NCBI GenBank assembly: GCA_945897955.1
Contig: CAMDGQ010000009.1
Coordinates: 1 to 64,000 of the forward strand
Reading direction: 5' to 3'
Length of the DNA stretch: 64,000 nt
Source of the DNA: Tepidiphilus sp. J10
GTDB taxonomy: Bacteria > Pseudomonadota > Gammaproteobacteria > Burkholderiales > Thiobacillaceae
Both the position numbers and the translations under genes were made by a program. The notes under the pieces were generated by a model that was not told where the DNA came from, searched no databases, and worked only from the letters and a program-made list of their open reading frames with translations. Shown in pieces: positions 17,098 through 28,657 of the stretch. The stretch's first letter is position 1. The number at the start of each line of letters is the position of its first letter.

Positions 17098-18207
17098 ATG
17101 GCGAAAGCACCCAAAGCAGTCAAACCCGCCGTGGGCGGCAAGAGTGAAGCTCCCGCGCTGCGCTATTGTTCCCAGCCGATACAGAATCCCAGGCAATTCG
17201 ATCCCGCCGTTGATGCACTTCGGGCGCGTGCAATTATTCATGGCGGCAAGAAGTGGGTGAACGGCACCCAACTCACCTACTACTGCTACAAGGCGGGTGA
17301 CGCGGTGCCCGCAGCCTGGCGCGGCAAGGCGGCGGACATCAAGGAGGTCGGAGCGGCGTTCGAGACCTGGTTCAAACTCGGCATCGGCATCAGTTTCAAG
17401 GCGGTAAGCCGGCCGGAAGACGCCACAATCCGCATCGGCTTCGATCCTTCGGATGGTTCCTGGTCCTATGTCGGGCGCGACATTCTGACGATTCGCGATC
17501 CACAGGAACGCACGATGAATTTCGGCTGGGCGCTCAATACGCCCTATGGGCGCGATACCGCACTGCATGAAATCGGCCATGCCATTGGACTTGAGCATGA
17601 ACATCAGAATCCCTTTGCCGGCATTACCTGGGATACCGCTGCGGTAAAAAGTTATTTTGCGGGGCCGCCCAACAACTGGGATATGCAGCAGATCGACTGG
17701 AACATTCTGCGCAAAATCCCGCCGGCGGAAGTGAAGGGTACGAAATGGGATCCCGATTCGGTCATGGAATACGGCTTTGGCCCGGGGTTGATCGTGGAGC
17801 CGGTTGCCTATCGCAACGGCTTGAATCCGAAAGGTGGCCTGTCCGCAGCTGACAAGGCCTGGATCGTGGAATCCTATCCCGGCGTCAAGCCGACTGAAAC
17901 GATCCCCGCGCTGGAAGTCGGCTTGTCGCAGAAACTGGCGATCAAGGCCGGCCAGACCCGCGTCTTCAACTTCAAACCGAAACGCACGCGGACCTATCGG
18001 ATCGGCACCTTCGGTACTTCGGACACGGTCATGGTGCTGTTCGAGGTCACCCCGGCCGGTAACGTGCAGATTGCCGGCAATGACGACAGCGGCTCCGATC
18101 TGAACGCCCGTGTCGATATGCGCCTGATCAACGGCCGCCAGTATCAGATCGGCATTCGTCTGTATTACGCGGAAATGGCTGCGGAAACTTCGATCATGGT
18201 CTGGTGA
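17098..18207 (+). CDS. Astacin/matrixin-like zinc metalloprotease with C-terminal PPC-like domain
   Basis: 369 residues. The catalytic zinc motif HEIGHAIGLEH has His157, Glu158, His161 and His167, followed by EHQNP as in bacterial astacin-like enzymes; the Met-turn is SVMEYGF with Met223. Residues about 270-369 look like a bacterial pre-peptidase C-terminal (PPC) beta-sandwich, including the IAGNDDSGSDLNARV segment. Such enzymes are normally secreted, yet no signal peptide is visible: the N-terminus is a Lys/Ala/Pro-rich stretch. Either the start is elsewhere, export is unconventional, or it acts inside the cell. It precedes the cytochrome operon by about 110 bases on the same strand. Confidence 0.85.
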   Translation: MAKAPKAVKPAVGGKSEAPALRYCSQPIQNPRQFDPAVDALRARAIIHGGKKWVNGTQLTYYCYKAGDAVPAAWRGKAADIKEVGAAFETWFKLGIGISFKAVSRPEDATIRIGFDPSDGSWSYVGRDILTIRDPQERTMNFGWALNTPYGRDTALHEIGHAIGLEHEHQNPFAGITWDTAAVKSYFAGPPNNWDMQQIDWNILRKIPPAEVKGTKWDPDSVMEYGFGPGLIVEPVAYRNGLNPKGGLSAADKAWIVESYPGVKPTETIPALEVGLSQKLAIKAGQTRVFNFKPKRTRTYRIGTFGTSDTVMVLFEVTPAGNVQIAGNDDSGSDLNARVDMRLINGRQYQIGIRLYYAEMAAETSIMVW

Positions 18208-18315: not shown

Positions 18316-20886
18316 ATGAAGACATCGACCTGGTTTGGCCTGTTCAGCATTGCGACCCTCGCCGGACTGGCCTGGCTGACGCAGCAACCGGAAAGCGCGC
18401 GCGCCACCTTGCCGCCGCAGGCAGCCGTCAGCAACATAGCGGCTTCTGCCACCGTGACAGCGCAGCCCGACGCGGCTTCGCCATTCACAGATGCCGGTTT
18501 CCATGCCGCCGCCGAAGGATTGTCGCCTTCCGCGCGTGCCGGCCGCGAAATCTGGTTCAAGGCCACCGCCGGCAATGCCCGCTTCCATACCTACACCTTC
18601 CAGCAGCGGGTCACCGCGCTGGTTGACTGGTACGGCGTATTGCGCGGGGACCAGCGCGACAACCGCTTCAAAACCTGGGGCATGATCAACGATCCGGGCT
18701 GCTGCACACCGGGTTCGGCGGGCTGTCCGGCGAAGAGTTACGAGGAGACCTACGGCTTCGACTGGTGTCCTGGCGACGAGACCCTGCTGAAGTTCGTCGG
18801 CAAGCCCGGTTATCGCGATCCGGGCTGCGACTTCAAGGAAGGCGACGTGGCGGCGGGCGATCCGGAAGGCCATCAGAAAGGCCGCGAAGACAGTTGCAAT
18901 CTGGCCTTCGGCACCTCCACCGGCGCGCTCGGTTTCCGCAAATTCCCCAACCCGCGCTTCGACCCTGCCGCCTGGATTCAGGTCAACGGCAGCCTCGGCA
19001 CCTGGACCGGCTACAGCCGCAAGCTGTCCGATGATCCGGCCCGCGCCGACCACAAGGTACGCAAACTGGCCGATGCCTCGGTCGAGCCGCCGTTCCTGAT
19101 CGGCACCGCCTGCGCCTCCTGCCATGTCGCCTTCGACCCGGCCAAGCCGCCGCGCGACCCGGCGCATCCGCAATGGGAAAACCTGTCCGGCCTGGTCGGC
19201 AACCAGTACATCCGGGTGTCGGAGCTGCTGATCTCCGGCATGCCGCGCGACGATCTGCTGTGGCAGATTTTCGCGCATGCCCGCCCAGGCACGTCCGACA
19301 CCTCGGCGATCCCGAACGATCAGGTCAACAACGCCGGCACCATCAACGCGCTGATCAACACCGCGCAGCGGCCGACCTTTGCCGGCGAGAAGGTCAATCG
19401 CTGGCGCAAGGCGGCGTCGTGTCCGGCTGGCGCGAAGGAATCCAGCTGCTGGTGCGAGCCCGGAAAAACCGGCAAATGCTGGGAAAAGAGTGTCAAGACC
19501 GAAACCGTGCATCACATCCTGAAGGGCGGCGGCGATTCCATCGGCGCGCTCGGCGCGATCCAGCGGGTTTATTTCAACATCGGTTCCTGTTCCGAACAGT
19601 GCTGGCTCAACCATCTGACCGACCTGCGCCAGATCGACCCGCAGGCGCGCAACTTCGGCCAGACGCCGTTCGACATCGGCCAGTGCCGGCGCGACTGCCC
19701 GAATTTCCGCGCCATCGAGGACCGCGTGCATAACCTGCTCGATTTCTTCCTTGCCGCGCCGGAAGGGCAGGCGCGAGATCTGGCACTGGCGCGCGCCAAC
19801 CAGCGCAACGTGAAATATGGCGAAAGCGATCTGGTGCGCGATCTGGAACGCAACTTTGGCGCCGGCTCGGTGGCACGCGGCCAGAAGGTGTTCGTCGACA
19901 ACTGCGCGCGCTGCCATTCCAGCGGCAAGGCGCCGTTCGAGACGGTCGATTTCCGCGCCATCAATGCCAAGACCGGGCAGCGCGCCGACTGGCTCGGCAA
20001 CGATGTGCCGATTCCGGTCACCGAGGTGGGCACCTATCGCTGCCGCTCGCTGCATTCCAACCACATGGCCGGCCATGTCTGGCAGGAATTCGCCAACGAG
20101 GACTACCGAGCGCGGCCGACTGTGTCCGGGCTGCTGGAACCGCACGATGGCGGCCGGGGTTACTACCGCAACGTCTCGCTGGTGAATCTCTGGGCGCACG
20201 CACCGTTCCTGCACAACAACTCCGTCGGGCCGGAACTGTGCGGCTGGGGCGGCGACAAGTCGAACCCCTACGAGCTGTATCGTTCCAGTTATGTTGACGC
20301 CAGCCAGCCGGGCAATCCGCCGCTGGCGAAGGACAAACAGCCGGCCTGCTGGGCCTACGATCCGTCAGTGGATGGCCGCTTCAAGCTGTATGTCGCGTCG
20401 ATGCGCGAGCTGCTCAACCCGGCACAACGCATACCGAAGGCCACCAAGCTCGATGAAGACATCGTGCTCGACATCGGTCCGCGCATCTTTGACGGCAAGG
20501 AGGAAAAGCGGCTGGTCGGCTTCACCGTGCGCGTGCCGGCGGGGGCCACGGCGGGCAATGTCGGCAACTTCCGGCACAAGGATTTCATCGTCGATCTGAT
20601 CCAATCCAAGCTGAAACCGGCCGAACTCGAAGCCCGGCTGGCGACGCTGTTGCCGGCAGCGGAAGCGAAGCAACTGGCGGCGGAGATGCAGAACATCGGC
20701 AAGGCCATCGTCGATGATCCGAACCGGCTGGTCGAGGTGGTCAAGGAAGCGCGGGCACGCACACCGGCGCTGTGGCAGGTTTATTCGTCATGCGGCGCGG
20801 AAATCGAAAACGACGGCCACCGCTTCGGTGAAGACCTGGCCGAGACCGACAAGAACGCGCTGATCGCCTTCCTGGCGACGCTGTAA
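18316..20886 (+). CDS. Large diheme c-type cytochrome oxygenase/peroxidase, RoxA-like
   Basis: 856 residues. A signal peptide or N-terminal anchor covers residues 5-30. Two c-type heme motifs are visible, CASCH at 266-270 and CARCH at 530-534, with a late WAHAPFLHNNS motif at residue 626 like that of RoxA-type rubber oxygenases and related diheme peroxidases of the MauG/CcpA group. RoxA cleaves polyisoprene by dioxygenation; here the substrate is unknown and the protein is longer, with many extra cysteines between the hemes (residues about 105-180 and 370-460) that may form disulfides. ATG 18316 is chosen because an AGGAG site precedes it. First gene of a five-gene operon. Confidence 0.85.
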   Translation: MKTSTWFGLFSIATLAGLAWLTQQPESARATLPPQAAVSNIAASATVTAQPDAASPFTDAGFHAAAEGLSPSARAGREIWFKATAGNARFHTYTFQQRVTALVDWYGVLRGDQRDNRFKTWGMINDPGCCTPGSAGCPAKSYEETYGFDWCPGDETLLKFVGKPGYRDPGCDFKEGDVAAGDPEGHQKGREDSCNLAFGTSTGALGFRKFPNPRFDPAAWIQVNGSLGTWTGYSRKLSDDPARADHKVRKLADASVEPPFLIGTACASCHVAFDPAKPPRDPAHPQWENLSGLVGNQYIRVSELLISGMPRDDLLWQIFAHARPGTSDTSAIPNDQVNNAGTINALINTAQRPTFAGEKVNRWRKAASCPAGAKESSCWCEPGKTGKCWEKSVKTETVHHILKGGGDSIGALGAIQRVYFNIGSCSEQCWLNHLTDLRQIDPQARNFGQTPFDIGQCRRDCPNFRAIEDRVHNLLDFFLAAPEGQARDLALARANQRNVKYGESDLVRDLERNFGAGSVARGQKVFVDNCARCHSSGKAPFETVDFRAINAKTGQRADWLGNDVPIPVTEVGTYRCRSLHSNHMAGHVWQEFANEDYRARPTVSGLLEPHDGGRGYYRNVSLVNLWAHAPFLHNNSVGPELCGWGGDKSNPYELYRSSYVDASQPGNPPLAKDKQPACWAYDPSVDGRFKLYVASMRELLNPAQRIPKATKLDEDIVLDIGPRIFDGKEEKRLVGFTVRVPAGATAGNVGNFRHKDFIVDLIQSKLKPAELEARLATLLPAAEAKQLAAEMQNIGKAIVDDPNRLVEVVKEARARTPALWQVYSSCGAEIENDGHRFGEDLAETDKNALIAFLATL

Positions 20887-20897
20887 AGGAGACGACC

Positions 20898-21767
20898 ATG
20901 ACCCGACGCCTGCTTCTCCTCGCCCTGATGCTGAGCCTGTTGCCCGGCTGCGAAAAAATTGCCGGCTGGTTCGCCGCCAAGCCGGATATCGCTTTCGCGC
21001 CGTATGGCGAGCACTACGCCAGCAAACCGGACTTTGCCCAGGTGGAATATGAGTTCCCGCTGGCGCTGTCCGAGTTGACCAAGGTGACACCGAAATACCT
21101 GGCCGGCCTGAATCAGGAAGAACTTGACCAGTTGTATGCGCGGTTGAGCTCCGGCCCGATACCCGATGGCGCGTTCGATGGCGAGATCGTGTTTCCGCGC
21201 GGCAGTTCCGGCAAGTTGCGCGCGGCGGAAGTGGTCGGCGGGCTGAAGGGGCTCGGCGTCAATTTCAAGGGCAGGATGCTGGAGACCGCTGGCGAGTCCC
21301 TGTGGAAGGGCAAGGTGTTCTATCGCAACGAAAAGGTGCTGCGCAACCGCATCGAGGATCTGACGCTGTTGCGCACGGTGATCGGCCCCGGTGACATCCC
21401 GAAGATCGACGTCGATGGCAAGGATGCCTGGCTGCTGTTCCCGGCCAAGCTGTATTGCGGCCAGAGTCTGATCGACTCGCGCCGCGAGTCGATCATCATC
21501 GACTATGCCTTCACCGACGAGATCAAGGGTTATCGCGAGAAGCCGGACTTTCTCGCCGGCCGGCGCGGCCTCAAGGTACGCGACGAAATCCGCATGGTGC
21601 GGCCGGGCCTGTATCTGGGCCGCGCCTACATGGACCACGCTTTCATCCTGAACTTCGTGCTGCACAGCAAGACGCTCGATGAAGCCGGCCGCGCCGAGTT
21701 CGAGATCGGCCAGGTCAGGGACGATTGCTGGAGCGGTACCCAGAAGCGAGTGCTGGCGCAACGTTAG
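20898..21767 (+). CDS. Lipoprotein of the diheme cytochrome operon, unknown function
   Basis: 289 residues with a lipoprotein signal peptide ending in LLPGC (Cys18). No known domain recognised. It has a mixed alpha/beta composition and one pair of isolated cysteines (LYCGQSL and DDCWSG). It begins 11 bases after the large cytochrome gene with an AGGAG site and ends 4 bases before the next cytochrome gene, so it is an integral operon member. A scaffold, chaperone or partner subunit for the neighbouring cytochromes in the periplasm is inference from position only. Confidence 0.8.
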   Translation: MTRRLLLLALMLSLLPGCEKIAGWFAAKPDIAFAPYGEHYASKPDFAQVEYEFPLALSELTKVTPKYLAGLNQEELDQLYARLSSGPIPDGAFDGEIVFPRGSSGKLRAAEVVGGLKGLGVNFKGRMLETAGESLWKGKVFYRNEKVLRNRIEDLTLLRTVIGPGDIPKIDVDGKDAWLLFPAKLYCGQSLIDSRRESIIIDYAFTDEIKGYREKPDFLAGRRGLKVRDEIRMVRPGLYLGRAYMDHAFILNFVLHSKTLDEAGRAEFEIGQVRDDCWSGTQKRVLAQR

Positions 21768-21771
21768 CCGC

Positions 21772-23316
21772 ATGCCGATTTGCACACCTATCCGTCTGAC
21801 CACACTGATGATCGCCGCCTTGTTCACCGTCGCCAGCGTTGCCGCCGACGACCTGCCGCCGGTGGGCCATTCGCGCTTCGACGAACTCATCGGCAATGCG
21901 CCGGTGCCGTTTCCGTTCTCGCGGCTGGTTGCCAAAGTCAATGCTCAGATGCAAACCGATGCCGGTGGCTTGCCGCCGTTGAAGGTGACGCTGATTCCGC
22001 TCGGGCGTTCGCTGCAGCGCGAAGCGGGCGCGCCGGACTTCTTTCGTTTTCCGCGCATGGTGGCTGCCGCCGACGGCGACAACAAAACCGGATATCCCCC
22101 GCTGAAGGACCGGCTGTTTCTTGGCTTCCATGAAAAGGGCGAAGTGGTCGAGGTGATCAGCTACAACGATGCCGCCGGCCGCTTCGAGTTTCAGGTGGTG
22201 CGCGATTACCGCGCCGGGGCGAAACCGACTGTGTTTTATGCGCGCCGCAGCCTCTGCCTGGCCTGTCATCAGAACGCCGCACCGATCTTCGCGCGGCCGC
22301 TGTGGGACGAAACGCCGGCCAATCCGGCGATTGCCGGCAAACTGAAGGCAGCCGGGCGCGATTTCTACGGCGTCAAATTGAGCGGCACCGACATTGCCTA
22401 TTTCATCGACAACGCCAGCGACCGCGCCAATCTGTTTTCGGTCTGGCAGACCCTGTGGCAGCAGGGCTGCGGCACGGGTGAGGAGGGCGACCGTTGTCGT
22501 ATGCAGGCATTTGCAGCCGCAGTGGAATACGCCCGCAACGGCAGGCTGCCCGAGAAGGAGGTTCTGCCGGCACTGGCGCGCAACTGGAGCCGACTGTGGC
22601 CGGATGGTCTGGGGATTCCCAACCCGGATTTGCCCAATCGCGATCCGATGGCCGCACTTCCCGATCCGGCCCATGACCCGTTGCGGATGCGACCGTTTCT
22701 TGAGGTCTGGCGCAAGCCGGACCAGACCGCGTTGATCGTCGGCCTGGCCGGCATGTTCGACCATAGCGCGCTGCAACGACTCCGCAAACTTGATGTCACC
22801 GCCGCGTTGGAACGACTATTTGTAAAAGGCGTCTTTGCCGCAAAACCGTTCAGTCAGGCGGTGCTCTATGAACTGGTGCGCGAGCAAGGCCTTGCTTCAC
22901 GTCAGCGATATCTGAAACTGCCGCCGGCACGTGTTGAAGCGGTATCGCGCGATGCCGATCCGCTGAAGCTGTGGCGAACCCATTGCGCCAGTTGCCATGA
23001 CACCACGCTGCCGCATCCGCCGAACTTCCTGCACGGCAGCCTGCAGCACGCCAGTGCCCGCCTGCAGCAGTGTGCGCCGCGTATCTTCGTGCGCCTGAGC
23101 ATGGCGGAAGTGGCTGAGTCGCAACGTCGGGTCGCGCCGATGCCGCCCGCTGCAATGCTGGCCAGTCGCGGTATTTCGCCGCAACACTGGGCGAAGTCTC
23201 CTGAACTGGCAGCCCTGAAACGCGACATCGCCACGCGTCTGCCCCCAGGTGCGACCACCCGCTTGCTGACACAGCCGTACGCGCAGTTGCCAGATTGCAT
23301 GGAGCCAGGGCGATGA
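21772..23316 (+). CDS. Exported diheme c-type cytochrome
   Basis: 514 residues with a signal peptide ending in ASVAA (about residue 25). Two heme attachment motifs, CLACH at 162-166 and CASCH at 405-409. The spacing between hemes (about 240 residues) is like that in the other cytochromes of this operon, but the WxxAPYLHN motif of its neighbours is absent. The ATG at 21772 lies 4 bases after the lipoprotein stop; the frame is open further upstream but overlaps that gene. Its stop overlaps the next start (ATGA). Electron transfer or a peroxidase-like reaction is likely; substrate unknown. Confidence 0.85.
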   Translation: MPICTPIRLTTLMIAALFTVASVAADDLPPVGHSRFDELIGNAPVPFPFSRLVAKVNAQMQTDAGGLPPLKVTLIPLGRSLQREAGAPDFFRFPRMVAAADGDNKTGYPPLKDRLFLGFHEKGEVVEVISYNDAAGRFEFQVVRDYRAGAKPTVFYARRSLCLACHQNAAPIFARPLWDETPANPAIAGKLKAAGRDFYGVKLSGTDIAYFIDNASDRANLFSVWQTLWQQGCGTGEEGDRCRMQAFAAAVEYARNGRLPEKEVLPALARNWSRLWPDGLGIPNPDLPNRDPMAALPDPAHDPLRMRPFLEVWRKPDQTALIVGLAGMFDHSALQRLRKLDVTAALERLFVKGVFAAKPFSQAVLYELVREQGLASRQRYLKLPPARVEAVSRDADPLKLWRTHCASCHDTTLPHPPNFLHGSLQHASARLQQCAPRIFVRLSMAEVAESQRRVAPMPPAAMLASRGISPQHWAKSPELAALKRDIATRLPPGATTRLLTQPYAQLPDCMEPGR

Positions 23317-24794
23317 ACGCCCGCCCTCCTGGCTGCCGCATCTGCCGCTTCGTGCTCTGGAGCGGGTTGATCCTGCTGTTGCTGATCTCCATCGCGGCAG
23401 CAATCCGCTTTCTGCCGGACCGGCCGGTGACCTACAACGATCCGGTGGAACATTTCAAATACGGCTCCACCGGTGGCGAGCGCAACATGGGCTTCCCGTT
23501 CTGGTTGTTCCAGGTGCTGCCGGAGGTGTGTCCGGATTTACTGCCGGGCAAGGGCTATCAATCGCTTGGATTCATTTTCGAGCCCGGCCACGATCTGCCG
23601 GTGGGCATGTCGAAACGTCGGCATCTGGGGATTGATCGCGTGTTCCTGAATTGCGCGGTGTGCCACGCCGCCACCGTGCGCACCACCGCCAACGCCAAGC
23701 CGATGCTGGTGGTTGGCATGCCGGCAAACCAGCTCGATCTGATGCGCTTCCAGAAGTTCGTTCAGGCCTGCGTCAATGATCGCCGCTTCACACCGTCTCA
23801 GGTGGTGCCGCGCATCGCGGAAAAGGCGGGCGGTTTGAGTCTGGTCGACCGCTGGCTGATCTATCCGCTCGGTATTCATTTGATGCGCGACGGCGTCGCC
23901 AGCTTGCTGGGCCGCATGCGCTTCATCCACCAGCAGGACGAATGGGGGCCGGGCAGGGTGGATACCTTCAATTCAGCCAAGGCGATCTTCGGTACGGCGT
24001 TCGAGCAGTTGCCGAAGGAAGAACTGATCGGCGTGTCCGACTTCCCGGCGATCTGGAACCAGGCGAAGAAGCAGGGCATGCAGTTGCATTGGGATGGCAA
24101 CAACAGCCGCGTCGAGGAGCGCAACCTGTCCGCCGCCTTCGGCACCGGGGCGACGCCGAAACTGATCGACCATGCCGCCATCGCCCGCATCGAGTCCTGG
24201 ATCGGCAGTGCCAAACCCCCGGCATTCGAGCGCTATTACCGCATCGACCGCGCGCTGGCGGAGCGCGGCGCGCCAATCTACGCACAACACTGCGCCGCCT
24301 GTCATGGCAGGAACGGCAGCGACTTCAGCGGCGAATACGTGGGCAAAGTGACGCCGATTGCAGTCATTGGCACCGACCGTGGCCGGCTCGATTCCTACAC
24401 CGCGCAACTGGCGCAGAACCAGGGCATGCTGTATTCCGCCGATCCGGAACGCCGCTTCCGCCACTTCCGCAAGACCTGGGGTTACGCCAATGCACCACTC
24501 GATGGCCTTTGGTTACGTGCGCCGTATCTGCACAACGGTTCGGTACCGAGTTTGCGGGATTTGCTGCAACCGGCGGCGCAGCGGCCGGTCACGTTCTATC
24601 GCGGCAACGAGCTGTATGACCCGAAGGGCATGGGCTTCGTCGCCGACCAGCCGAGCAGCCAGGGCAGGGCGCTGTTTGCTTTCGATACACGCATTGCAGG
24701 CAACGGCAACGCCGGCCATGAAGGCCGCGGGTACGGTACGGATCTGGCCGAGGCGGACAAGCGGGCGTTGATCGAATACCTAAAAACATTCTAG
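23313..24794 (+). CDS. Membrane-anchored diheme c-type cytochrome, RoxA/peroxidase-like (paralogue A)
   Basis: 493 residues. An N-terminal membrane helix (residues 15-35) probably stays as an anchor, with the rest periplasmic. Heme motifs are CAVCH at 114-118 and CAACH at 327-331; the motif WLRAPYLHNGSVPSL begins at Trp400. The sequence FKYGSTGGERNMGFPFWLF after the anchor, the KRR-IGIDRV lead to heme 1 and the C-terminal EADKRALIEYLKTF are repeated in the next gene, showing a tandem duplication. It starts inside the stop of the previous gene, which implies translational coupling. Confidence 0.87.
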   Translation: MNARPPGCRICRFVLWSGLILLLLISIAAAIRFLPDRPVTYNDPVEHFKYGSTGGERNMGFPFWLFQVLPEVCPDLLPGKGYQSLGFIFEPGHDLPVGMSKRRHLGIDRVFLNCAVCHAATVRTTANAKPMLVVGMPANQLDLMRFQKFVQACVNDRRFTPSQVVPRIAEKAGGLSLVDRWLIYPLGIHLMRDGVASLLGRMRFIHQQDEWGPGRVDTFNSAKAIFGTAFEQLPKEELIGVSDFPAIWNQAKKQGMQLHWDGNNSRVEERNLSAAFGTGATPKLIDHAAIARIESWIGSAKPPAFERYYRIDRALAERGAPIYAQHCAACHGRNGSDFSGEYVGKVTPIAVIGTDRGRLDSYTAQLAQNQGMLYSADPERRFRHFRKTWGYANAPLDGLWLRAPYLHNGSVPSLRDLLQPAAQRPVTFYRGNELYDPKGMGFVADQPSSQGRALFAFDTRIAGNGNAGHEGRGYGTDLAEADKRALIEYLKTF

Positions 24795-24804
24795 GAGACC
24801 CGTC

Positions 24805-26259
24805 ATGTGGATACTTTGTCGTTGTCCGCCCTGGATCAGAAACAGCTTGTTGTTTGCCTTGGTGCTTGTTGTCATTCTGGCCCTGATCGGTTGGGACCGA
24901 CTGTTGCACGACCATGGCCCGGGCGAATTCGGCAATCCGGATGACCGCTTCAAGTATGGTTCGATTGGCGCCGAGCACGATGCCGGCATTCCGTACTGGA
25001 TTTTCTATGTGCTGCCTCGGGTGTTCCCCGAGAAACTGCCGAAACCGGGCATCGGCTATGCCAGTTTCGGGATGGTCTGGGAGGAAGGACGCGAGTTGCC
25101 GATGGGCTTCACCAAGCGACGCATCGGTTTTGATCGCGTCGGCAACAACTGCGCGACCTGCCATGTCGCCAGCTACCGCAGTCAGCATGCCGAAACGCCA
25201 ACGCTGGCGCTGACCGGGCCGAATCACACGCTGGATCTGGAGGCGTTTTTCCACTTCCTGATCGATTGCGCCAAAGACCCGCGTTTCAACGCCGATACGC
25301 TGATGACGGAGATCGACCTGGCGGCCAACCTGGATTTCATCGACCGACTGATCTATCGCCATCTGATCATTCCGCTGACGCGAAAGAAACTGCTGGAGCG
25401 GGAAGCCCAGTTTGCCTGGATCTATCGCCACGATTTCCCGGAGTGGGGGCGCGGGCGTGACGATGCGATGAATCTGCCAAAGTACTTCCTGATCAACTGG
25501 CCGATGGACAACACCTTTGGCCCAACCGATTTCGCCTCAATCTGGAATCTGAAGAAATACCAGGCCGGAACAAGGTTGAACTTCTCCGGTGATACGCACG
25601 ACGTGTATTCCGTGGTGATCGACTCGACGCTCGGTGTGATGGGGGCGGCGCCGAAGGACAAGGCCGAGTTTCAGGGGCACATCGATTGGCTGGTGAGCTA
25701 TCTGAGCAACAAGCCGGCACCGAAATATCCGTTTGCCCTCGATACTGACGCCGCAGCGCGGGGTAAATCGGTGTTCGCCACGCACTGCGCCGATTGCCAT
25801 GCCAGCACCCGCACCGGCACGGTGATGCCGCTGGCGGAGATTGGCACCGATCGTGGCCGCATGGATACCTGGGGCAAACAGGAAGCCATTGCCGGCAACA
25901 AGGCAGTCAGCGATCTCGGCATCGAACGCAAGGGGTTGGTGGAAGCGCCGCTGACCGGCTATCTGGTGCAGTTCCTGGATGGCATCTGGTTGCGCGCGCC
26001 CTATCTGCATAATGGTTCGGTGCCGAGCCTGGCCGACCTGCTGAAGCCGCCGGCGCAGCGGCCGCAGGTGTTCTGGCGTGGCTATGACCTTTATGACCCG
26101 TTGCGGGTCGGCTTCGTCACACAGGGGCGCGAGGCGGAATTGGCCGGTACGCGCTACGACACCGCACAGCGCGGCAATGGCAACCAGGGCCACGAATTCG
26201 GCACCGCCTTGCCGGAAACCGACAAGGCGGCCTTGCTGGAATATCTGAAAACGCTGTGA
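24805..26259 (+). CDS. Membrane-anchored diheme c-type cytochrome, RoxA/peroxidase-like (paralogue B)
   Basis: 484 residues with an N-terminal membrane helix (residues 12-30) and a periplasmic body. Heme motifs are CATCH at 116-120 and CADCH at 328-332, almost the same positions as in the preceding paralogue; WLRAPYLHNGSVPSL starts at Trp395. It shares with it FKYGSIGAE, VLPRVFPEKLP, TKRRIGFDRV and the TDKAALLEYLKTL tail. It begins 10 bases after the previous stop and ends the operon; its stop is 9 bases from the convergent Rieske gene, with no obvious terminator hairpin between. Confidence 0.87.
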   Translation: MWILCRCPPWIRNSLLFALVLVVILALIGWDRLLHDHGPGEFGNPDDRFKYGSIGAEHDAGIPYWIFYVLPRVFPEKLPKPGIGYASFGMVWEEGRELPMGFTKRRIGFDRVGNNCATCHVASYRSQHAETPTLALTGPNHTLDLEAFFHFLIDCAKDPRFNADTLMTEIDLAANLDFIDRLIYRHLIIPLTRKKLLEREAQFAWIYRHDFPEWGRGRDDAMNLPKYFLINWPMDNTFGPTDFASIWNLKKYQAGTRLNFSGDTHDVYSVVIDSTLGVMGAAPKDKAEFQGHIDWLVSYLSNKPAPKYPFALDTDAAARGKSVFATHCADCHASTRTGTVMPLAEIGTDRGRMDTWGKQEAIAGNKAVSDLGIERKGLVEAPLTGYLVQFLDGIWLRAPYLHNGSVPSLADLLKPPAQRPQVFWRGYDLYDPLRVGFVTQGREAELAGTRYDTAQRGNGNQGHEFGTALPETDKAALLEYLKTL

Positions 26260-26268
26260 GGCTGGCGC

Positions 26269-27387
26269 CTACAGGTGCGGCTCGATCATCCGGCGCAGCC
26301 ATTCATGGAAATGCACCATGCCGTCTTCCATCGGCGACTGGTACGGGCCGGCCTGGCTGAGGCCCTGCTCGTACAGCGCCTTGCGGCCCTTCTGCATGCC
26401 GTAGCAGATGTCGTCGTCCTCGATCGCCGTCTCGCGATAGGCGGCCTGTTCCGCCTCGACGAATTCGCGCTCGAATAGCGCGATGTCTTCCGGGTAATAG
26501 AACTCCACCACGTTGAGGCAGGAATCGACGCCGGTCGGGATGATGTTGCTGACTACCAGGGTGTGCGGATACCACTCGACCATCAGCGCCGGGTAGTAGG
26601 TCAGCCAGATCGCGCCGTGCGCCGGGTCGGAGCCTTCACGGTATCGCTTCACCTGCTGGTGCCAGCGGTTGTAGACGGCACTGCCGGGATTGCTTAGATG
26701 ATCCTGCACGCCGACGGTCTGTACCGAGTACATCTCGCCGTATTCCCATTTCAGTTCGTCGCAATTGACGAAGTTGCCCAGGCCTGGGTGGTAGGGCACG
26801 ACGTGGTAGTCCTCCAGATAGACCTCGATGAAGGTCTTCCAGTTGAACTTGTATTCGGTGATCTGGGTGCTTTCGTAGACAAAGCCGGCGAAGTCCATGT
26901 CGGCGGCGACACCGAGTTTGGACAGGTCGGTATGGATGTCGCGCGGGCCGGCGAACAGCAGGCCGTTCCAGTTGGATAGCGTTGTCTTGTTCAGGTGCAG
27001 ACAGGGGTTGTTGGGGAAGTGGGGCGCACCCATCAATTGGCCGCGCGTGTCATAGGTCCAGCGATGGAACGGACAAACGATATGCTGGGCATTGCCCCGC
27101 CCCTGCAGCATTTGTGCCTGGCGATGCCGGCAGACGTTGGACAGCAGTTCGACGCGGTTGCCTTCCTCGTTCCGATTGTTGACCAGCATCTTGCCGCCGC
27201 CATGCAGCCAGTCGAGCACATGGAAGTCGCCTTGAGCGGGCGTCATCAATTCATGGCCGACGTAGTTGGCGCCGCGCTTGAACAGCAATTCCTGTTCGAG
27301 CGCGTAAATCCTTGGATCGAAATACCAGTCGATGGGGAGGGCGGGGCTTGTTCGGGTGAGAAGAGTTGATGCCGTCGGGTGAGACAT
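26269..27387 (-). CDS. Rieske non-heme iron ring-hydroxylating oxygenase, alpha-subunit type
   Basis: 372 residues. The Rieske [2Fe-2S] cluster ligands are Cys86-x-His88 and Cys105-x2-His108 (CRHRQ and CPFHRW). The catalytic iron site is in the EDYHVVPYHPGL segment, with His195 and His200 and a preceding Asp. Family members hydroxylate or demethylate aromatic, quaternary-amine or sterol-like substrates using electrons from a reductase. No reductase or ferredoxin is adjacent. ATG 27387 (MSHPTAS) is preferred over the 27471 extension. It follows the DUF455 gene (stop 27444) on the same strand by about 56 bases. The substrate cannot be deduced. Confidence 0.92.
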   Translation of the reverse strand: MSHPTASTLLTRTSPALPIDWYFDPRIYALEQELLFKRGANYVGHELMTPAQGDFHVLDWLHGGGKMLVNNRNEEGNRVELLSNVCRHRQAQMLQGRGNAQHIVCPFHRWTYDTRGQLMGAPHFPNNPCLHLNKTTLSNWNGLLFAGPRDIHTDLSKLGVAADMDFAGFVYESTQITEYKFNWKTFIEVYLEDYHVVPYHPGLGNFVNCDELKWEYGEMYSVQTVGVQDHLSNPGSAVYNRWHQQVKRYREGSDPAHGAIWLTYYPALMVEWYPHTLVVSNIIPTGVDSCLNVVEFYYPEDIALFEREFVEAEQAAYRETAIEDDDICYGMQKGRKALYEQGLSQAGPYQSPMEDGMVHFHEWLRRMIEPHL

Positions 27388-27443
27388 GCTGCTCACTAAC
27401 TCAATGAAAGATAAAGGAAATAAAACTGCAAAACGGTGCGCGA

Positions 27444-28298
27444 TTATGCCCGCGCGGGCTTGCCCGGGCAAGGCTGATTGGCGATGTCCTTGTCCTGGTA
27501 TGCGGGGTTTTTACCGACATCCAGTTCGGCCAGTTCTTGCGCGCTGAAGCCGGCCGCCAACCGCGCCGATTCATTGAATGGCCGCCGTGGCCGGGGAACG
27601 CCCGGCGTGGCGAGCAGGTTCCGAAATGCACTTTCCGGTTCCAGCCCGCGCTGCGCACAAAGGAATTTAAACCAGCGGTCACCCGCCGCGACATGGCCAA
27701 TTTCATCGCGCAGGATGATGTCCAGAATATCGGCGCCGGCGGCGTCGCCGTAACCGCGCAATTTGCGCTGGATGTCGGGCGTTACGTCGAGACCGCGCGC
27801 TTCCAGCAGGCGCGGTACCAGGGCCATGCGTGCGAGCGGGTCGTGCGCGGTTTTTTCGGCCATTTCCCAGAGGCCGGCATGCGCCGGGAAATCGCCATAG
27901 TCCTTGTCCAGGCCGCGCAGATGATTGCGCAGTAGACTGAAGTGATATGCCTCCTCGGCGGCGACGACGAGCCAATCGCCATAGAACTCGCGCGGCAAAC
28001 CGGCAAAGCGCTGCACCGCGTCGAGCGCCAGATTGATTGCATTGAATTCGATATGGGCGAGGGCGTGGATCAGCGCGGCGTGATTTTCCGGGCCATTCAG
28101 TTGACGACGCGGCATGCTTGCCGGTGAGGCCAGAAGTGGACGTTCCGGAATACCTGCATTGGCAATCGGCGCACCGAAATCACCATCGGAGTCAAAGGCG
28201 CCGGACTCCCATTCCGAATGCAGCCGCTCGGTTTCTGCCAGCTTGGCTTCGATTACGCATTCGGACAGCACGCTTCGAGCCGCGAAGTGAATATTCAT
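27444..28298 (-). CDS. DUF455 ferritin-like protein
   Basis: 284 residues. The central helices carry carboxylate/His motifs typical of ferritin-like di-iron proteins: AHIEFNAINLALD, EEAYHFSLLRNHL and DEIGHVAAGDRWF. DUF455 proteins resemble tRNA-hydroxylase MiaE-like folds but have no settled function. The start overlaps the end of the VanZ-like gene by four bases, so translation is coupled. In the same minus-strand run as the nitroreductase and the Rieske oxygenase, which are all oxidoreductases. Confidence 0.88.
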   Translation of the reverse strand: MNIHFAARSVLSECVIEAKLAETERLHSEWESGAFDSDGDFGAPIANAGIPERPLLASPASMPRRQLNGPENHAALIHALAHIEFNAINLALDAVQRFAGLPREFYGDWLVVAAEEAYHFSLLRNHLRGLDKDYGDFPAHAGLWEMAEKTAHDPLARMALVPRLLEARGLDVTPDIQRKLRGYGDAAGADILDIILRDEIGHVAAGDRWFKFLCAQRGLEPESAFRNLLATPGVPRPRRPFNESARLAAGFSAQELAELDVGKNPAYQDKDIANQPCPGKPARA

Positions 28299-28657
28299 GG
28301 CGCGAGTTTTCGCATGCTCCAGTCGAGCGTGCTGCGGGCCGCAATCCAGCCGAGTCCGACGCCAAGACTGTTGGCTGCCATGTCGAAAATGTCGCCCTGG
28401 CGAACACCGCCCAGACTTTGCAGGATCTCCAGCATGAGTCCCATCAGGATGAAGATCAGCGCCAGACGGTATCCGTTGCGTTCGATCTGATGCCACCAGC
28501 CCATCAACGCGGCGTAGGCGAGCAGATGCCCGATCTTGTCGCCGAATTCGACAGGAGCTTCGGGCGGCTTTGGGGTCAGCGAAAGGTAAATGACCGCCAG
28601 CACCAGCAGCCAGCCCGACACGATCCATGCACGGCGGAAAATTCCGGCGACTGCCAT
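28295..28657 (-). CDS. VanZ-like membrane protein
   Basis: About 120 residues with three or four membrane helices. The VanZ signatures are visible: DKIGHLLAYAALMGWW and, after a polar turn, EILQSLGGVRQGDIFDMAANSLG. Function of this family is unknown outside vancomycin-type teicoplanin resistance. The start is uncertain: ATG 28657 lies just after the stop of the upstream nitroreductase, while ATG 28690 would overlap it; neither has a strong ribosome binding site. Confidence 0.8.
   Translation of the reverse strand: MAVAGIFRRAWIVSGWLLVLAVIYLSLTPKPPEAPVEFGDKIGHLLAYAALMGWWHQIERNGYRLALIFILMGLMLEILQSLGGVRQGDIFDMAANSLGVGLGWIAARSTLDWSMRKLAP

Follow-up and report, generated by a model that had tools for sequence, protein, structure and literature searches.

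The window analysed here is a stretch of 64,000 nucleotides from Tepidiphilus sp. J10 (contig CAMDGQ010000009.1, positions 1 to 64,000). Between positions 18316 and 26259 it carries five closely packed genes, all on the plus strand, which encode four di-haem proteins and a lipoprotein and are designated C1, Lp, C2, C3 and C4:

18316-20886, plus strand: C1, 856-aa putatively secreted di-haem protein with haem motifs CASCH (His270) and CARCH (His534), a WAHAPFLHN motif and many invariant cysteines
20898-21767, plus strand: Lp, 289-aa lipoprotein, predicted barrel, with a lipobox ending at Cys18
21772-23316, plus strand: C2, 514-aa putatively secreted di-haem cytochrome, not RoxA-like (CLACH, CASCH)
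23313-24794, plus strand: C3, 493-aa putatively membrane-anchored RoxA-like di-haem protein (CAVCH, CAACH)
24805-26259, plus strand: C4, 484-aa putatively membrane-anchored RoxA-like di-haem protein (CATCH, CADCH)

From C1 to C4, the intergenic distances are 11, 4, -4 and 10 bases, and C1, C2, C3 and C4 have two CxxCH motifs apiece. An earlier interpretation made from the letters of this DNA (the sequence-only reading) had proposed the same five genes, and gene calls bear out their coordinates, their sizes and a spacing of at most 11 bases; the motif W-x-x-A-P-(F/Y)-L-H-N that it had noticed in three of the four cytochromes is common to C1, C3 and C4. It had also taken two cytochromes to be membrane-anchored, in agreement with N-terminal hydrophobicity on the Kyte-Doolittle scale, which is highest in C3 (2.65) and C4 (2.43), whose N-termini look hydrophobic enough for membrane anchors, and lies at 1.28-1.85 in C1, Lp and C2, whose N-termini look like signal peptides.

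The five genes form an inherited unit, beyond chance, as their order is kept in related genomes and their proteins diverge together. Searching genome contigs with C1 alone gave 40 loci, with record titles naming Thiobacillus, Hydrogenophilales, Sulfuriferula, Gallionellaceae, Nitrotoga, Accumulibacter, Dechloromonas, Zoogloea and others. Eleven of these loci end before C4 could be seen and fall outside the order count. Among the 29 with enough DNA, the order C1-Lp-C2-C3-C4 is kept in 28 (two of which, L008 and L035, end inside C4), and the exception is a Sulfuriferula locus with C1-Lp-C2 only (L018). Seven further genomes hold close C1 copies, five with the full set (L074, L075, L101, L105, L107) and two with C1-Lp-C2 only (L071, L073), so that all five genes are found in 33 of 36 loci when both searches are combined; L070 and L072, which duplicate L036 and L023, were excluded, and three C1-positive fragments that end at contig edges (G291, G380, G431) were left uncounted. 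Other genes lie between C1 and C2 in several Thiobacillus-type loci, and the five-gene order persists down to 52% C1 identity (L043). Pairwise identities of the five proteins correlate with r values of 0.86-0.96, and none of 999 permutations reached values as high (18 rows: the window and 17 loci). The sequence-only reading had called for such a neighbourhood comparison and had named absence of the cluster from related genomes as grounds against itself; the comparison finds the cluster conserved. Irregular arrangements were seen in a short contig where a C4 gene lies upstream of C1 (L038:54-3247), in the closest named relative, where a frameshift or an assembly error breaks C2 into two frames (L072:6605-8302, from the record that also gave L023), and in genome G325, which has the full operon and also a second divergent C1 copy, a 734-aa frame with no C2-C4 beside it (L069:8125-10326).

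The distribution of the operon is patchy. In the genus, 3 of 23 genomes contain C1 or a distant relative; among the relatives the count is 8 of 61, and in the class 9 of 274. The full operon is present in, among others, the cultured Dechloromonas hankyongensis XY25 (L046). Lp was detected in 2 of the 274 class genomes and 6 of the 61 relatives, every one of them C1-positive, and C2 in 7 of the 274, 6 of them C1-positive (G214 has a C2 match and no C1 match). Within the order, 12 of 150 genomes have matches to NF040606, the NCBIfam family "di-heme cytochrome C peroxidase", and 9 of the 12 are carriers or fragments of the operon.

C3 and C4 are the members most clearly related to known enzymes. 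Both exceed the curated cut-offs of PF21419 (54 bits for C3 and 57.5 for C4, cut-off 26.7) and of NF040606 (196.4 and 162 bits, cut-off 150), and among Protein Data Bank (PDB) entries each matches the crystal structure of RoxA, 4b2n, best. A profile built from RoxA and four RoxA-like proteins was matched at 99.8% by residues 114-493 of C3, which span both haem domains, and by residues 239-484 of C4. The two proteins are tandem paralogues, 39% identical in a profile alignment. RoxA binds O2 at a haem with one histidine (H195), its other haem is of the bis-histidine type (H394/H641), and F317 and W302 are near the haems (PMC6311187; also PMC4496055); RoxB is described as keeping the Phe and having Val in place of Trp302 (PMC6311187). 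Expression of RoxA in E. coli is reported to fail (PMC6311187). By alignment, the counterparts in C3 of RoxA H195, H394/H641, PYFH517NGSVP, W302 and F317 are His118, His331/His469, PYLH407NGSVP, W260 and F276, all invariant in 21 of 21 aligned rows (the window and 20 of 29 C3 genes, with C4 aligned to C3). The W260 counterpart follows the program alignment, and F276 was matched by eye, one residue off the program's register; W211, also considered as the Trp302 counterpart, was rejected, as the alignment with RoxA points to W260. C3 thus has the single-His haem 1, the bis-His haem 2, the H517 motif and both pocket residues of RoxA-like proteins. C4 lacks the counterpart of F317, with Leu276 in 21 of 21 rows, and its position 260 is Tyr in 10 rows, Phe in 9, Leu in 1 and Trp in 1; the direct alignment of C4 with RoxA, in a register one or two residues away, has no Phe at the F317 place either.

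Relationship to the rubber oxygenases themselves is more distant. The RoxA, RoxB and RoxC models match C3 and C4 far below their curated NCBIfam cut-offs (best 81.8 vs 900 bits), and therefore nothing in the operon is filed as a rubber oxygenase. Compared with RoxA and RoxB of Steroidobacter cummioxidans 35Y, C3 and C4 share the two CxxCH motifs, a one-His N-terminal and a bis-His C-terminal haem and PY(F/L)HNGSVP, but they are about 180 aa shorter than RoxA, membrane-anchored by prediction and part of a five-gene operon. MauG and MbnH share two haems and the histidine motif with the operon proteins; however, the MbnH model reaches only 13 of the 363 bits set as its cut-off, and no CCP_MauG model is among the Pfam and NCBIfam scan matches of the operon proteins. 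In the portion available of the BthA/MauG paper, the network covers PF03150 only and RoxA is unmentioned (PMC6405878). The profile check suggested by the sequence-only reading hence had a divided outcome, passed by C3 and C4 for PF21419 and NF040606 and not for the RoxA/RoxB/RoxC, MbnH or CCP_MauG models.

C1 lies below the cut-offs for RoxA-like proteins (PF21419 18.6 vs 26.7; NF040606 30.6 vs 150). Its C-terminal domain, from haem 2 to the end, matches the C4 profile at 97.6%, with no alignment to C4 elsewhere, and against the RoxA profile only the last 35 residues align (32%). All 15 C1 proteins compared, eight divergent ones included, have His270, His534 and His835, and the absence of any further invariant histidine fits one five-coordinate and one bis-His haem; His835 is the likely sixth ligand of haem 2. 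Lys403, considered for the Trp302 place, was dropped, as the profiles do not align there. Beyond CxxCH, C2 has no similarity to RoxA or MauG profiles in the Pfam and NCBIfam scans and with the RoxA-type profile, and no NF040606 match. Its Met457, in an MPP motif, is conserved in 28 of 28 rows and is the likely ligand of haem 2. The description of all four cytochromes as RoxA/MauG-like therefore stands for C3 and C4, applies to C1 by its C-terminal domain and fails for C2. The best candidate for an oxygenase is the anchored C3 rather than the large C1, because C3 keeps the counterparts of Trp302 and Phe317, C4 is without the Phe and C1 is related by its C-terminal domain only. The sequence-only reading had made C1 the enzyme and had left the anchored pair to move electrons; as far as C3 is concerned, it probably has these roles reversed.

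Distant relatives point to an older core within the operon. Five distant C1 relatives, in frames of 815-893 aa (L061-L064, L068), have a C2 relative directly downstream, and Lp, C3 and C4 are not recognisable beside these pairs. Because distant C1 relatives have C2 only and C2 is nearly always found in C1-positive genomes, C1 and C2 are probably the oldest partners, with Lp and the C3/C4 pair as later additions. Three more distant C1 relatives are without C2 in the DNA seen; two of them adjoin a gene for a GMC oxidoreductase, one together with a patatin gene (L065).

For Lp, no convincing Pfam family was found for any of 28 members, with only two families matched, by one member each (E 0.07 and 0.5). 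GXWXG/DUF4334, considered as a name for Lp, was abandoned: there was no such Pfam match, and the literature gave nothing useful. In an AlphaFold2 model (pLDDT 69.8), Lp is predicted to contain a barrel, for which "lipocalin-like" is our own label. The best structure match of the model is Tcur_1030 (4mve), with Z 10.0, 3.4 A over 141 residues and a Foldseek probability of 1.00 but an E value of 8e-3. The two are 19% identical, and Lp has an extra N-terminal part and a lipid anchor. No other match stands out; next come, at Z about 5, assorted barrels, among them designed ones and many fatty-acid-binding proteins. Each of Trp136, Trp178 and Trp278 of Lp is retained by 95% or more of 28 rows.

Both flanking genes named by the sequence-only reading are real in the window:

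17098-18207, plus strand: metzincin-type metalloprotease upstream of C1 (Pfam Peptidase_M10, Astacin), loosely linked and not core
26269-27471, minus strand: Rieske oxygenase, convergent behind C4

The metalloprotease recurs in 6 of the 40 related loci and was rejected as a core part; no Rieske oxygenase was seen in the 40 loci, although some stop short of its position, and it was rejected as a partner. Behind the Rieske gene lies a gene for a DUF455 protein (27444-28628, minus strand).

Other neighbours recur more widely. A patatin-like protein of about 740-930 aa is encoded immediately upstream of C1 in 15 of the 40 loci. The Pfam Patatin match is above cut-off in L065 and just below it in L007 and L101. 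In L101 the gene follows C4 at a distance of about 40 bases and in the same orientation, and in L074 a 1332-aa frame, recognised by a purpose-made profile, lies behind C4 on the opposite strand. Among the 61 relatives, patatin is found in 6 of 8 C1-positive and 8 of 53 C1-negative genomes (Fisher p 0.001, uncorrected for relatedness), and the genome of the window (G000) has three long patatin-like genes away from the operon, on contigs C40, C50 and C57. Five NF040606-matched loci without C1 nearby were also examined, three of them above the model cut-off. In two, a P450 gene directly adjoins the gene for a RoxA-like di-haem protein (L102:7734-9653, L108:5895-7184), which suggests a dioxygenase-P450 pair; the L108 protein is over the NF040606 cut-off. 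A third locus has a GMC/hydrolase fusion beside the matched gene (L104), and the remaining two are without a P450 or GMC neighbour. In several lineages, genes for a beta-propeller (YNCE/lactonase type) and a FecR-domain protein are paired, within the operon or a little upstream of it (L007:12564-14925, L016, L073:7332-9655, L101:2394-4788, and upstream of C1 in L037). In some loci the propeller lies between C1 and Lp, its family F13 being present in 3 of 40 loci, plus L073 and L101. Thiobacillus-type loci have an alpha-amylase-type gene between Lp and C2 (L007:16294-18138, also L009, L011, L015 and L019).

RoxA-like di-haem proteins have been given two kinds of substrate, rubber and fatty acids (PMC6311187, PMC4496055). 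In Pseudomonas aeruginosa, PA2077 (10S-DOX) adds O2 to oleate and its paralogue PA2078 (7,10-diol synthase) converts the hydroperoxide, and the name "FadCcp" is used for the two enzymes; these tandem RoxA-like paralogues are 43% identical, have 634 and 624 aa and signal peptides, and both have the Phe317 counterpart (PMC4496055). Like C3 and C4, they form a tandem pair of RoxA-like di-haem paralogues, one of which keeps and one of which loses the inter-haem Trp, but they are longer, bear signal peptides and have the Phe in both members, and the two pairs are likened here by published description, not sequence (PMC4496055). Based on this resemblance, the patatin-like phospholipases near the operon, the P450 and GMC neighbours of other relatives and the barrel-like Lp, it is tentatively proposed, at somewhat below an even chance, that the operon is a lipid-oxygenating module of the cell envelope. 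C3, a membrane-anchored RoxA-type di-haem oxygenase, would bind O2 at its N-terminal haem and add it to a lipid C=C bond, with an unsaturated acyl chain as the likeliest substrate. C4, a tandem paralogue with an altered haem pocket, would act on the product of C3 as PA2078 does after PA2077. C1, divergent and secreted, may serve as a third di-haem oxygenase or peroxidase in partnership with C2, which would be an electron-passing cytochrome. Lp, with its predicted barrel, could carry or present the hydrophobic substrate, which in some lineages may be released by the patatin-like phospholipase. An oxidising module located in the envelope, as proposed in the sequence-only reading, is supported as a conserved module with RoxA-type members; the polymer that it had suggested as substrate finds little support, and the neighbours hint at lipids.

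Several observations weigh against a lipid substrate or against this assignment of roles. No patatin gene adjoins the operon in the window, and among the 25 loci with no patatin gene upstream of C1, 17 extend 3 kb or more in that direction. The 15 loci with an upstream patatin gene belong mostly to one Thiobacillus-type group. Patatin was found in 8 of 25 further C1-positive genomes (two of which were already counted among the 61 relatives; G319, G325 and G312 are also in both searches), and in only 1 of 13 C1-positive genomes of Accumulibacter, Dechloromonas or Zoogloea type. No obvious lipid gene was seen beside the five distant C1-C2 pairs, of whose neighbours only two were scanned. The two P450 neighbours come from one genus and may represent one event, and the L102 protein is below the NF040606 cut-off and has a single CxxCH. 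The structure matches of Lp may reflect a common barrel only, and the AlphaFold2 model of C1, built from 29 sequences, is unusable (pLDDT 45.6). The Phe missing from C4 is present in PA2078, whose haem-motif mutants stayed active (PMC4496055), so the parallel between C3/C4 and PA2077/PA2078 is one of resemblance, not membership. RoxA-type matches, none over cut-off, were found in 2 of 185 genomes (G025 and G038), both of which carry the C1-C2 pair on other contigs, a co-occurrence that would suit a polyisoprene(oid) substrate no less than a fatty-acyl one.

Two alternatives compete most closely with the lipid proposal, a module that reduces peroxide and one that modifies proteins, with Lp as its target. 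The former, a peroxide-reducing or respiratory electron-transfer system in which C1, C3 and C4 would be di-haem peroxidases fed by C2 and the membrane and removing H2O2, would explain the two membrane anchors, the His/Met-type haem of C2, which suits electron transfer, and the chemolithotrophs among the carriers as given by record titles. The NCBIfam name of the family of C3 and C4 also speaks for it, although that name states no tested function. It is nevertheless rather unlikely, since C3 and C4 match RoxA, an oxygenase, and no CCP_MauG model in the scans, since C3 retains both RoxA pocket residues, and since peroxide removal leaves Lp and the neighbouring patatin, P450 and GMC genes unexplained. 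Ordinary cytochrome c peroxidases in a well-known cluster, the outcome that the sequence-only reading had set against itself, are thus matched in the subfamily name, but neither in a CCP_MauG match nor in a known cluster. Modification of the MauG/MbnH kind, in which one or more di-haem proteins would oxidise residues of Lp or of the operon-inserted beta-propeller protein, would be in keeping with the presence of Lp only with C1, its three conserved tryptophans and the propeller found between C1 and Lp in some loci. It is less probable still, as the propeller occurs in few loci, Lp was not found with the C1-C2 pairs and the MbnH model scores far below its cut-off.

A rubber or other polyisoprenoid oxygenase system of the RoxA/RoxB/RoxC type is improbable: the three profiles do match C3 and C4, and the only two genomes with RoxA-type matches also carry the C1-C2 pair, but scores reach at most 81.8 of 900 bits, no RoxA match is over cut-off among the 185 genomes, and C3 and C4 are shorter than RoxA and apparently membrane-anchored. 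Chance or housekeeping neighbours without a joint function could account for the patchy distribution, with C1 in 3 of 23 genomes of the genus, but this can hardly be reconciled with the conservation of gene order in 28 of 29 loci, even where C1 identity falls as low as 52%, and with the co-divergence of the five proteins. Membership in the same family as the U(IV)-oxidising Tbd_0146/Tbd_0187 of Thiobacillus denitrificans, considered by description only, was dropped, no link being given in the available part of PMC3753534.

Altogether, the operon brings together enzymes of a known superfamily in a new, conserved combination. The sequence-only reading knew of no described system combining four such proteins, and no description of the five-gene set was found in the open-access literature (PMC). 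A broader view of the proposed lipid-oxygenating module, doubtful at present, is that of a patchily spread bacterial envelope oxylipin system, in which differently tuned di-haem oxygenases, a cytochrome and a lipid-carrying lipoprotein would oxygenate membrane-derived acyl chains. Its carriers would be chemolithotrophs and polyphosphate-accumulating bacteria, and in some lineages a linked phospholipase would release the chains. With its five genes conserved as a unit and the lipoprotein strictly linked to it, the operon provides a defined genetic handle on what other RoxA-like members do. If the lipid reading is true, enzymatic lipid oxygenation would be extended to environmental lithotrophs and activated-sludge bacteria.

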